A DNA stretch of 21,356 bases from a virus: positions 1 through 21,356 of the IMG/VR virus record IMGVR_UViG_3300010430_000518. One strand, 5' to 3'. The first letter of the stretch is position 1. The number at the start of each line of letters is the position of its first letter. A program made the translations under genes and the position numbers. A model generated the notes under the pieces. That model worked only from the letters and a program-made list of their open reading frames with translations. It was not told where the DNA came from and did no database searches. Below are positions 2,282 to 6,256 of this stretch, in pieces.

Positions 2282-2715
2282 GCCGCTACCTCGCTAGGGT
2301 GGAGAAGGCACAGCCCCTGCTGGCTGTACTCCCTCACCACGGTTTCAATAAATTCGGTTGCTTGGGCTTTCGCCATTTTTGAAGTGACCGGAAGCCAGTC
2401 CATTGCCCGCAGTTTGAACTCGTAATCAAGCGGCTTGATCGCCTTGTCGTAGACGTAGCAAAACTCCTCACTGTGAGCGCGGAGAATCGGCACGCCATAT
2501 CTCAACTTGCATTCCCGCCGTATGTCCACAATGGCGCTGTCTGGTAGCTGTGACGCTATCTGCTGGTACAGCGCATAGATAAGCGAATTCTGGTCAAGGC
2601 TCCGAGACTCAGGCACGAACTCAACCACAGGCCGCTTGCCAGAAAGCCTCAGCGTCCCAACGTGTGCCATGAACCGCTGCATCACGGTCTCACTGCTCAA
2701 GTCCCAGCGCCTCAC
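2278..2715 (-). CDS. ninB: NinB recombination protein
   Basis: This is NinB (Orf), a recombination mediator that binds single-stranded DNA and can stand in for RecFOR in lambda recombination. The key signature is 'VPESRSLDQNSLIYALYQQIA', which matches the lambda NinB block with RSLDQN. The start is GTG at 2715, giving 145 aa against 146 in lambda. This GTG overlaps the dcm stop as GTGA and is preceded by GGGGAGG. An upstream extension to 2805 is Cys/Gly/Arg-rich antiframe sequence and is rejected. The junction is one copy of an 18-bp repeat also found at the dcm start. Confidence 0.88.
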   Translation of the reverse strand: MRRWDLSSETVMQRFMAHVGTLRLSGKRPVVEFVPESRSLDQNSLIYALYQQIASQLPDSAIVDIRRECKLRYGVPILRAHSEEFCYVYDKAIKPLDYEFKLRAMDWLPVTSKMAKAQATEFIETVVREYSQQGLCLLHPSEVAA

Positions 2716-2727
2716 GCCTGCGCCTCC
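2710..2727. repeat. 18-bp direct repeat, copy at the ninB start
   Basis: The plus-strand word CCTCACGCCTGCGCCTCC occurs here and again at 3984-4001. On the coding strand it holds a ribosome site (GGAGG), the codons for EAQA or its equivalent, and a GTGA stop/start overlap. The two copies bracket dcm exactly. Confidence 0.95.
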
Positions 2728-3989
2728 CCTACAGCCATACCTGCAACAACCTCCACGGCCTCCGCACACACATCCTCGTAACGCTGGATTCGTGACCCTA
2801 TCCATCCCATGACAGGGACGGCCATGCTATTTCCCAGGGCCTTGTATCGAGGCCCATCAGGGCACTTTTCGACTGGTTTGTTGCGGTAGGGAATGGCTGT
2901 GTACTTGTCGGGGAAGCCCTGTAGGCGCTCGCACTCAACGGGCGTTAAGCGTCGGACTTGCATGGAGCTGAAAACACCGTGACTGTGAGCTGCCTGGAGA
3001 GTGAAAGCAGGGTCGCCATCATCCCCAATGCCAAACCCGGTGCCCTCGCCCATCTTTTCGCTGCGTGTTGCTATCTGCGTGTTGATTGGCATGGCAACCG
3101 CAGGCTTCTTGCTCTTGTCCAGGGTGGGGCTGACCGACTCGATCACACTGTCGCCCTGGCTGGGACTGTTCTGCCAACCGAATGCGACCGGCACAATTGG
3201 CGTGCCGCGCCCTGTTCCGTCCTCGCTGGCGTTATACTTTGCGCGTAGGGTGTGGGCTACTATCGGGGCTTCGTGGTTGCAGGTAAGCGTTGGCCCCATG
3301 TTGTGCGCTATCTCAGCGCCACCTTGGCCGTGGGCCATTGAAATCAATCCCCCATCGCAGTCGAAGTCAGTTCCGAGGCCACCGACTCCAGTGCTTCTTG
3401 CAGGGATGGTGGGAGCAACTTTCCCCTTTTCTCGGCGCGGCGCAGGATGCCCCGACAGGCTGTGGCGCTCAAAAAGTACCGCTGCGGCACCTCTCCAGTC
3501 TCCAAGACATCCGACAACGAACACACGCTTGCGCCGCTGTGCCAGACCGACGTATTGAGCGTCAAGAACTCGGTAGGCGAACCCATACCCGAGCTCCCCC
3601 AGGAGCCCGAGGAAGGAACCAAAATCCCGTCCTCCGTTACTGGACAGGACGCCGGGGACGTTCTCCCAAACCAGCCATTGGGGCCGATATTTTGCAGCAA
3701 TCGCACCAAAGGTAAGCATGAGGTTGCCACGCGGATCATCCAGTCCTTTTCTGAGTCCTGCGACTGAGAACGACTGGCACGGGGTGCCTCCAACGAGAAC
3801 ATTGATATTTGCATCCGGCCAATCCTTATATTTTGTCATGTCGCCCAGGTTGGGCGCATCTGGGTAGTGGTGAGCAAGCACGGCTGACGGGAAAGCTTCA
3901 ATCTCGCTGAAGAATGCAGGCTCCCACCCGAGCGGATGCCATGCCGCTGTCGCCGCCTCAATCCCGCTGCACACGCTCCCGTACCTCAC
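2712..3989 (-). CDS. dcm: DNA (cytosine-5-)-methyltransferase
   Basis: This transfers a methyl group from S-adenosylmethionine to C5 of cytosine in a target site, probably protecting phage DNA from host restriction. The conserved blocks are in order: motif I 'GSVCSGIEAATAAW' (residues 4-17), catalytic loop 'GGTPCQSFSVAG' with Cys71, ENV at 109-111, QRRKR at 151-155, a variable target-recognition region at about 165-340, motif IX 'RRLTPVECERLQGFP' (346-360) and motif X 'RYKALGNSMAVPVM' (381-394). The recognition region repeats short 'APTIPA / GPTLTC / SPTLDK' units. The start is GTG at 3989, overlapping the upstream stop (GTGA). No partner restriction gene is visible, so it is an orphan. It sits between two 18-bp repeats. 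Confidence 0.95.
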   Translation of the reverse strand: MRYGSVCSGIEAATAAWHPLGWEPAFFSEIEAFPSAVLAHHYPDAPNLGDMTKYKDWPDANINVLVGGTPCQSFSVAGLRKGLDDPRGNLMLTFGAIAAKYRPQWLVWENVPGVLSSNGGRDFGSFLGLLGELGYGFAYRVLDAQYVGLAQRRKRVFVVGCLGDWRGAAAVLFERHSLSGHPAPRREKGKVAPTIPARSTGVGGLGTDFDCDGGLISMAHGQGGAEIAHNMGPTLTCNHEAPIVAHTLRAKYNASEDGTGRGTPIVPVAFGWQNSPSQGDSVIESVSPTLDKSKKPAVAMPINTQIATRSEKMGEGTGFGIGDDGDPAFTLQAAHSHGVFSSMQVRRLTPVECERLQGFPDKYTAIPYRNKPVEKCPDGPRYKALGNSMAVPVMGWIGSRIQRYEDVCAEAVEVVAGMAVGEAQA

Positions 3990-4225: not shown

Positions 4226-4536
4226 CAGAAGTACCTCGGGCTGCAATCGACCTGTACAGCACCCCTGCGCCAGGGGCGGGACATCATCGAAACGCCATCC
4301 TTAAATATCGGCTTTGGCTCGGCCTTGATGTACACAAAGGATTCGTCGGGGGAGTTTCTAGGCAGAACATTAAGGAGGTCACCGCGAACCATGGCTCCAA
4401 GCGCGCCGCGAATAGTGTCAATCTTCACTGGATTCTTACGGCTGCCGAGAAGGGTGTTTATGTCACTTGCCTTGAACGGCTCACCAGACTGGTAATGGCG
4501 AGTGCCAATGATGTAATCAATAAGTTTCAGGCTCAT
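4225..4536 (-). CDS. Small winged-helix-like protein (103 aa)
   Basis: The N-terminal 60 residues (LIDYIIGTRHYQSGEPFKAS, then INTLLGSRKNPVKIDTIRGA) read like a short winged helix: helix, a 'DINTLLG' turn, a second helix, and a hydrophobic ending 'GDLLNVLP'. The C-terminus is polar. The ATG overlaps the helicase stop (ATGA) and the gene ends at the next ATG. Its place behind the helicase is where lambda P or an accessory replication protein would be, so it may help load the helicase or bind DNA. This is inference. Confidence 0.6.
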   Translation of the reverse strand: MSLKLIDYIIGTRHYQSGEPFKASDINTLLGSRKNPVKIDTIRGALGAMVRGDLLNVLPRNSPDESFVYIKAEPKPIFKDGVSMMSRPWRRGAVQVDCSPRYF

Positions 4537-5492
4537 GCTGCGACCCTCCGGTTGAATTCAAGGTGCATCTTCCGGCCATCATGGAATTGCAGAGACTGGT
4601 CAAAGTTCAGGCCGATAGTTCCCTCAAATGACCCGTTGCGCTGCTTCTCGACAATCAGGCGCTGGTCAAAGCGGTTATCAAGGTAAACAGTCTCAGCAGG
4701 CGTAAGCGTTAAGCCGTTATCCAGCTTGCTGCGCAGCTTGATTTTCTTCTTGTCGGCCCAGTGGATGAACACGTTGTGGACAAGATCGGTCAGCTCACCA
4801 GCTCCACGCACATCAAACTTGTTAGGTATGTATTCTTCACCCTGGCTGGCTGGCTTGCGAACGTGGCACACAAGGTGAATATGGATCTGGAAAGCCTTGG
4901 CCGTGGCACACAGTGCGTCAATGAAATCCTTTTCAGCACCGCGCTCACCGTAGGGCAGGCCACACTTGGTGAGTGAGTCAATCAGGATATGCTTGCAGCC
5001 CATGTCCTTGGCCATGTAGAACACGGCACCGAGAACCCGGCTTGAAGGGGTGGTGTCCAGCTTGTCGTAGTAGGCAAGGCGCTCAAAGTTCCACTGCGCC
5101 CATTCCCGTATGTAACCCGGTGATGGGTATTGCGACCCAGCAGCCTGCTGGCACATGCGCTTCTGGGTATCCCTCACGGGCATTTCAAACGAAGCGATCC
5201 CGCAAGGCTCACCGTCAGCAGCAAACCACTCCATCATCTGACCGGTCACCATAGACTTCCGGTGCCCGTTCATACCGGCGTGAATGGAAACCTCACCGGG
5301 ACGGAACCTGATCTTGTCGTGGGTTTTCGCCCAAGGGAGTTTTGCGCCGGTCAGGACTTGGCCGTTACGGAAGTAATCAAGTAACTCCGCTTCGTAGTCA
5401 CTGCCCCATGAAATATTCTGCGACTCTTGCAGCCCGAGGTAGGAAATCAGGTCTTTGTCGGTGTAGTTGCAATCGTTATCGGTGAAATTCAA
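4533..5492 (-). CDS. DnaB-like replicative helicase
   Basis: This is a phage DnaB/RecA-fold helicase of 319 aa, expected to unwind DNA at the fork. Seen are the P-loop 'GMNGHRKSM' (about residues 73-81), 'ASFEMPV' (the H1a region, about 100-106), the Walker B strand 'HILIDSL' (168-174), 'HLVCHVRKP' (206-214, histidine sensor region) and 'RGAGELTD' near 229-236. The DnaB N-terminal domain is missing, as in many phage versions. The start is TTG at 5492: TTGA overlaps the stop of the O-like gene and a GGAGGTG site lies five bases upstream. It follows the initiator gene in the order seen in many lambdoid phages (O then helicase or loader). Confidence 0.88.
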   Translation of the reverse strand: MNFTDNDCNYTDKDLISYLGLQESQNISWGSDYEAELLDYFRNGQVLTGAKLPWAKTHDKIRFRPGEVSIHAGMNGHRKSMVTGQMMEWFAADGEPCGIASFEMPVRDTQKRMCQQAAGSQYPSPGYIREWAQWNFERLAYYDKLDTTPSSRVLGAVFYMAKDMGCKHILIDSLTKCGLPYGERGAEKDFIDALCATAKAFQIHIHLVCHVRKPASQGEEYIPNKFDVRGAGELTDLVHNVFIHWADKKKIKLRSKLDNGLTLTPAETVYLDNRFDQRLIVEKQRNGSFEGTIGLNFDQSLQFHDGRKMHLEFNRRVAA

Positions 5493-6256
5493 AACACCAC
5501 CTCCTGCTCGCCAGATACGGTTTCGCCAACTTCGTCTTCCCACCCCTTGTCCCTGATCCAGCGTTCAACGTGTTGGAAGTTTGGGGCGAACTCCCCAGCA
5601 GACCTCAGCTCACGTTTAGCCAAAACCTGTTGGTCAAGGCAGGACTGAATCTCGGCACAAAACTCAGGTGATGGGTTGAGTCGCTTCCACTGGTCGAAGG
5701 CGCGTTTGCGGTTGCCCTTTCCGCCAAGGTCTGTGGGCCAGGAATCCCACAATTGATCAAACGTCAACGCGTGCTTGTCACGCGTGCTTTCCTTTCCTTC
5801 CTTCCTTCCTTCCGCTTGTGCGTGCACTTCACGCGTTGCTGACGGTACTTCCACGCGTCCGTCACGCGTGCCCCACGCGTCAGAAGCCGCGTCTTTACTG
5901 GTTATCACCTCATCCGCATCATCAACAGACGGTAAATCGGACGCTGATTCACGATTATTGATAACTTGGTGCTTTGTGAAGGTGGGAATGCAGCCAAACC
6001 ACTCGTCGTCCACGCGATACTTCACGACGAAACCACGCGTGAGCCACGCGTGAAGCACGCGTGAAAAATCAACGTCATCATGGGGTAATGTCTGTGCTTT
6101 TATCGTCCGTGGACGCCAGGGAAATCTCCCCTCGCGATCGGCAACTGTGAACAACATGACCCAAGCGAAACGCACCGGAAGGCCCGTTTCCTGCTCCAGG
6201 TCAAACATGCCCTCATGTGCGGCAAGCTCAGGCTTAACTGTTCTGATTCTCGCCAT
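5489..6256 (-). CDS. O-like replication initiator
   Basis: This is a replication protein with the layout of lambda O. The N-terminal domain (about 1-100) begins MARIRTVKPELAAHEGMF and carries 'ADREGRFPWRPRTIKAQTLP', typical of the winged-helix origin-binding part. A polar linker (about 110-165) follows. The C-terminal block 'FDQLWDSWP', 'KGNRKRAFDQWKRLNP' and 'VERWIRDKGWEDE' is usual for phage replication proteins that recruit the helicase. The linker DNA and part of the N-domain DNA contain nine ACGCGT repeats, the probable origin. The ATG shares a base with the upstream stop (TAATG); the stop overlaps the helicase TTG. Confidence 0.85.
   Translation of the reverse strand: MARIRTVKPELAAHEGMFDLEQETGLPVRFAWVMLFTVADREGRFPWRPRTIKAQTLPHDDVDFSRVLHAWLTRGFVVKYRVDDEWFGCIPTFTKHQVINNRESASDLPSVDDADEVITSKDAASDAWGTRDGRVEVPSATREVHAQAEGRKEGKESTRDKHALTFDQLWDSWPTDLGGKGNRKRAFDQWKRLNPSPEFCAEIQSCLDQQVLAKRELRSAGEFAPNFQHVERWIRDKGWEDEVGETVSGEQEVVF
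5767..6062. other. Probable replication origin: ACGCGT iterons inside the initiator gene
   Basis: Nine copies of ACGCGT, seven of them preceded by C on the plus strand, occur in 296 bp. Cluster A starts at 5767, 5780, 5831, 5853, 5864 and 5875; cluster B starts at 6035, 6046 and 6057, with a one-base variant at 6012. Within clusters the step is 11 bp, or 22, so the sites face one side of the helix. The 11-bp step carries the same word through all three reading frames (SRV, HAW, TRG in one cluster; DAW, TRD, GRV in the other), so the repeat is kept for its DNA. The spacer between clusters contains more A/T-rich patches. Lambda ori is also iterons inside O. Confidence 0.82.
5794..5813. repeat. 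(TTCC)5 tract inside the origin region
   Basis: Five exact TTCC units, preceded by further TTTCC copies from 5788, give a pure purine strand on the coding side, which encodes the EGRKEGKE segment of the linker. It lies between two iterons. Loss or gain of a unit would shift the initiator frame. Confidence 0.9.

Follow-up and report, generated by a model that had tools for sequence, protein, structure and literature searches.

In bacterial oriC, the DnaA boxes are followed by the DnaA-trios, an array of short repeated units. Plasmid iterons are generally ~17-22 bp long and lie outside the rep gene, and in some RepA_N replicons the origin is found within rep. In phage lambda, an A+T-rich segment with almost all purines on one strand lies beside the iterons (PMC5043065), and an AT-rich tract is required for unwinding (PMC7466680). 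The locus described here, at positions 5767-6062 of the window (the whole 21,356-bp stretch of viral DNA that was analyzed), is of a known kind, namely an iteron origin within the initiator gene as in lambda gene O. It is best read as a lambda-like origin whose iterons, tract and initiator differ from those of lambda. Judging from the sequence, we put the probability at about 0.87 that it is a phage replication origin inside the gene of its own initiator, where an initiator-bound phased array would open the tract and the helicase would be loaded.

The hexamer ACGCGT occurs nine times in the window. All nine copies (Table 1) fall within 5767-6062, inside the minus-strand ORF 5489-6256, and none lies elsewhere. 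The whole-window count is unremarkable when taken alone, as dinucleotide shuffles gave a mean of 5.8 copies and at least nine in 18 of 100 cases. Within the initiator gene, where ACGCGT is the commonest 6-mer, shuffling of synonymous codons gave a mean of 1.44 copies and a maximum of 6. The four ACGCGT pairs spaced by 11 bp were reached in none of 20,000 such shuffles (mean 0.12). An earlier note on this DNA had reported the nine copies and their 11-bp step, the peptides SRV, HAW and TRG in one cluster and DAW, TRD and GRV in the other, and had asked for a codon-preserving shuffle count. Positions and peptides proved correct, and no shuffle among the 20,000 contained nine copies. Its placement of the array within an initiator gene agrees with the matches of the encoded protein to PHROG replication initiation families. 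A general avoidance of ACGCGT outside the gene, through titration or restriction, was considered and rejected: the rest of the window has no copy, but in related loci the observed-to-expected ratio is 0.65, rank 22 of 64 palindromes.

Table 1 Features of the proposed origin and its flanking genes, in window coordinates.
Feature	Position	Strand	Remark
Helicase gene adjoining the initiator gene	4533-5543	-	RecA/DnaB-like C-terminal fold; PHROG DNA primase/helicase
Initiator gene, 255 aa	5489-6256	-	N-terminal winged-helix domain (predicted, ~residues 1-120), variable C-terminal part
Cluster I iteron 1	6057-6062	-	encodes SRV
Cluster I iteron 2	6046-6051	-	encodes HAW
Cluster I iteron 3	6035-6040	-	encodes TRG
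Degenerate copy TCGCGT	6012-6017	-	one mismatch; one base off grid
Cluster II iteron 1	5875-5880	-	encodes DAW
Cluster II iteron 2	5864-5869	-	encodes TRD
Cluster II iteron 3	5853-5858	-	encodes GRV
Cluster II slot 4	5842-5847	-	degenerate
Cluster II iteron 5	5831-5836	-	same grid, 22 bp after iteron 3
Polypurine tract GGAAGGAAGGAAGGAAGGAAAGGAAAG	5787-5813	-	proposed unwinding or single-strand element; TTCC/GGAA array
Trailing iteron	5780-5785	-	just past the polypurine tract
Second trailing iteron	5767-5772	-	13 bp beyond the first trailing iteron

On the gene strand, the first copies read TTC-ACGCGTGC, TTC-ACGCGTGG and CTC-ACGCGTGG. Cluster II of the window occupies slots 1, 2, 3 and 5 of a single 11-bp grid, and a relative with 72% identity (L070) likewise has sites in the cluster II grid. 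Ten relatives carry a true ACGCGT 44 bp past the first copy, to be compared with the degenerate TCGCGT of the window.

To select relatives independently of the word, we used a protein profile search alone, took the closest 80 relatives and thinned them at 80% identity, which left 47 genes; the relatives are metagenomic and represent a sample. Two or more ACGCGT pairs spaced by 10-11 bp occur in 46 of these 47 genes, where synonymous shuffles predict 0.14 of 47. Pair distances are sharply phased, with 151 pairs at 11 bp, 82 at 22 bp and 20 at 33 bp, none at 10 bp and one at 12 bp. Nearly all of the 47 genes keep both clusters, and the cluster I copies lie at gene positions 194, 205 and 216 (191, 202 and 213 in some relatives). 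Phasing between the two clusters was rejected, as their distance differs among relatives and is no fixed multiple of 11.

The codons of cluster I follow the word. Serine is TCA in 43 of 43 cases, alanine GCG in 43 of 43, aspartate GAC in 37 of 37 and histidine CAC in all seven, and arginine is CGC at site 1 (44/44) versus CGT at site 3 (41/41). Leucine within the word is always TTG or TTA (TTR, 42/42), whereas leucine just outside it is CTC in 20 and CTT in 21 cases, and out-of-word glycine codons vary too. Codon choice in cluster I is thus set by the DNA word and not by the amino acid. The same word is kept although the predicted recognition helix differs between branches, a point that tells against the origin reading.

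We also scanned IMG/VR without reference to protein, using the pattern ACGCGTN{4,5}ACGCGTN{5,35}GGAAGGAA, which was designed after the tract had been seen in the initial relatives. The pattern matched 69 stretches, 65 of them in ORFs of this initiator family. With the control word AGCGCT in an otherwise identical pattern there were seven matches, none in the family. Cluster I is mostly absent from this set and cluster II comprises 2-7 copies at 11 or 10 bp. In 25 genes its last iteron begins precisely 12 bp ahead of the tract, and about half of the genes have an extra ACGCGT just past the tract. Across 270 cluster II sites, use of the three reading frames is even (93, 91 and 86 sites), and with rare exceptions the bases on either side of the word are C or G, which gives the symmetric site (C/G)ACGCGT(G/C). 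One record (L039, G003) holds another ACGCGT 11-bp array at 22826-22853, ~560 bp beyond that of the initiator gene. Within a further initiator gene (L006, nt 640-850), iterons and a GGAACGGG tract are present twice as near-identical tandem duplications, and this sequence suggests that the module was amplified as a unit.

The view of the earlier note that the word is selected as DNA is borne out by the shuffles, the conserved spacing, the word-fixed codons and the use of three frames. It had named relatives that keep the initiator and lose the spacing as the case that would tell against it; the protein-selected relatives keep the spacing with a single exception. The two-cluster design it described holds up and is conserved across the branch to which the window belongs, but more distant relatives mostly have cluster II alone. 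Two further features, the polypurine tract and the 11-bp step of a sister family with another word, were absent from that note.

In the relatives the polypurine tract is 20-50 nt long and lies just downstream of cluster II. Of the 47 protein-selected genes, 44 contain 18 or more consecutive purines, a number to be read against the ~20 of 47 in which synonymous shuffles also yield such a run; the mean run length in the ACGCGT family is 35 nt, versus 18 nt in the shuffles. The repeat unit varies among relatives (GGAA, GGGAA, GGGAAC, GGGATCA and GGGAACA). Over its first 40 bp, the tract (in the sister family, the corresponding TGATTCC array) is lower in stability than its synonymous alternatives (t 6-8 in both families), and the iterons of the ACGCGT family are more stable than theirs. 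The tract is of a GGAAGG type with a G+C content near 50%, and its stability lies only modestly below that of the synonymous alternatives. That it is not A+T-rich, unlike classical unwinding elements, was counted against the origin reading. A universal G-quadruplex was rejected: four GGG runs occur in several tracts, but the G runs in the tract of the window and in the sister TGATTCC array stop at GG.

Where ACGCGT is missing from a relative, another word takes its place, such as AAGCAAC, present three times at 11 bp in L026, or GCATGTGCAC at a 10-bp step in L005. The Bordetella and Pseudomonas branch, here called the sister family, has a GCACNNTGC-like word at 11 bp. Across 42 non-redundant members, the 110 nt before its TGATTCC array match themselves more often than expected when shifted by 11 nt (z 15.0) or 22 nt (z 15.9), and the surplus at other lags is only small (z 3.9 at lag 33, z 3.1 at lag 7); these z values treat genes as independent, though relatives are not, and serve as guides rather than probabilities. 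The TGATTCC array itself, a 7/8-bp repeat that is the complement of a GGAATCA unit, shows periods of 7, 8, 14 and 15 (z 17-26, to be read in the same way). In the ACGCGT family, a C-terminal region used as control gave nothing at lag 11 in the same self-match test. In Klebsiella phage ST512-KPC3phi13.3 (L029), GTAC-type palindromic repeats with ~11-bp spacing precede a GGGATCA array at gene nt 330-400, a third word in the same layout.

The initiator protein matches PHROG replication initiation protein families over its N-terminal domain (phrog_16167, E 1.2e-37; PHROG 1408, E 9e-20). No Pfam or NCBIfam family matched the protein of the window, and a Pfam search with 44 aligned relatives returned five matches to three unrelated families. 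Two of these 44 members contain an HNH endonuclease domain inside the initiator ORF. AlphaFold2, run on the alignment of the 44 relatives, gave pLDDT values mostly above 90 at residues 11-120, with the C-terminal part poorly defined; the confident N-terminal domain of the model is read as a winged helix. Among solved structures there was no PDB match below E 0.001 and no convincing relative by sequence or fold. Weak structural matches were mostly winged-helix proteins, mostly repressors, and included AspA and TubR; predicted viral structural relatives include proteins named replisome organizer. The cluster I copies encode residues 65-74, within the predicted helix 64-74, which from its position in the fold is probably the recognition helix.

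In many named phages, relatives of the initiator gene adjoin DnaC-type loaders, DnaB-like helicases or primase/helicases. The same early block of the window has a C5-cytosine DNA methylase gene at 2712-3989 (minus strand; PF00145, E 3e-49). Homologues of a Q-like antiterminator, NinG and NinB are encoded at 647-1018, 1258-1926 and 2278-2805, respectively, all on the minus strand, and correspond to the lambdoid block downstream of the replication genes. GC skew gives no indication of an origin at this locus and was taken as uninformative: in two related phages its extremes fall elsewhere than at the initiator gene, and in the window its minimum lies near the operon divergence.

As the ACGCGT layout is common to more than 100 distinct related phages, the locus is almost certainly a replication origin. 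We infer that copies of the winged-helix domain of the initiator would bind the (C/G)ACGCGT(G/C) sites at intervals of one helical turn (11 bp), and that the resulting phased array would bend or strain the DNA. Such an array could open the adjacent polypurine tract, onto which the helicase encoded by the next gene would then be loaded. By analogy with the DnaA-trios, the short-unit purine array might even be a new kind of sequence-read single-strand element, one that evolves in step with either the initiator or its helicase loader, and that determines the strand to which the helicase goes, an idea we put forward tentatively and consider rather doubtful.

Other functions of the array have to be weighed against an origin. 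The array might serve as an operator, bound inside the gene by the initiator or another phage regulator that thereby controls its own transcription, with the tract present only incidentally. Phased operator arrays do exist, and a predicted winged-helix DNA binder with mostly repressors among its weak structural neighbours would suit this role. Such an operator is nevertheless improbable, given that the array lies 65-163 codons into the gene and not at a promoter, that the purine tract is coupled to it in almost every relative, with the distance from the last site fixed (-12) in 25 genes, and that the sister family changes both word and tract unit yet keeps the layout. Still less can be said for a partition or packaging site, a centromere-like array that happens to sit in a replication gene. 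In its favour, the weak fold matches include two centromere-binding proteins, AspA and TubR, and sites of this kind typically consist of short phased repeats. Against it, the array lies in the initiator's own gene and its word differs from one initiator family to another, the neighbours are helicase genes, and those ORFs of the window that were searched against Pfam (not every ORF) include no ParA-type partner.

It is just as hard to credit that words and tract arise at the level of protein or mutation, a KEGR-type linker of repetitive, low-complexity sequence generating them through codon bias or slippage. For the tract this explanation has some force, since it is partly coding-driven, as the purine runs of ~20 of 47 shuffled genes indicate, and short tandem units can grow through slippage; the observed runs are nonetheless about twice as long as the shuffled ones (35 versus 18 nt). 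For the words it is already refuted, as their counts and steps lie far outside the synonymous shuffles, the three frames are used equally, and in-word codons are frozen while adjacent codons vary.

Read as an origin, the locus would be a distinct variant, with its 11-bp step, short palindromic word, two clusters, G-containing purine tract of changeable unit and initiator without a Pfam model. No account of origins marked by ACGCGT, an 11-bp step or GGAAGG within phage initiator genes came up in the open-access papers searched, a scope that leaves priority uncertain. For many temperate phages and prophages with no mapped origin, the signature indicates where the origin probably lies, as the 65 of 69 blind matches illustrate. 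It also offers an unusually clean case of two codes in one gene, with a hexamer kept in all three frames and codon choice pinned to the DNA word. The sister families share the 11-bp step but neither the word nor the tract unit, which makes co-evolution of initiator and origin directly testable.

Compared with the origins of lambda and the lambdoid Stx phages in gene O (PMC7466680, PMC5043065), the locus is alike in lying inside the initiator gene, the proposed array and tract being wholly within the ORF. It is alike, too, in the order of repeated sites and then a segment with purines and pyrimidines divided between the strands, which opens in lambda and is proposed to do so here, and in an initiator gene that adjoins a helicase-loading function. 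Lambda has four and Stx phages six iterons of ~18-19 bp, whereas the sites here are 8-bp palindromes (6-bp core) every 11 bp and, unlike in lambda and Stx phages, number up to nine in two clusters. The segment of lambda is A+T-rich, in contrast to the GGAA/GGGAA tract with its G+C near 50%, and unlike lambda O the initiator matches no Pfam family, the O families (phage replication protein O) included. With iteron plasmid origins (RK2, P1, F; PMC5043065) the locus shares replicon-specific, helically phased direct repeats beside an opening element and, as in iteron replicons generally, these repeats are under selection at the DNA level; it differs in the 11-bp step and in an array that is itself coding sequence. 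RepA_N replicons (pSK41, pTZ2162, PLE; PMC7145576) likewise have a winged-helix-type N-terminal DNA-binding domain and semi-palindromic repeats, but here there is no RepA_N match in Pfam, the site length is another and a poly-A centre is missing. As in oriC, an array of short repeat units, potentially able to hold one strand, comes directly after the double-strand sites; the initiator here, however, is not an AAA+ DnaA, and the units are purine-rich words of 4-8 bp instead of GAT trios.
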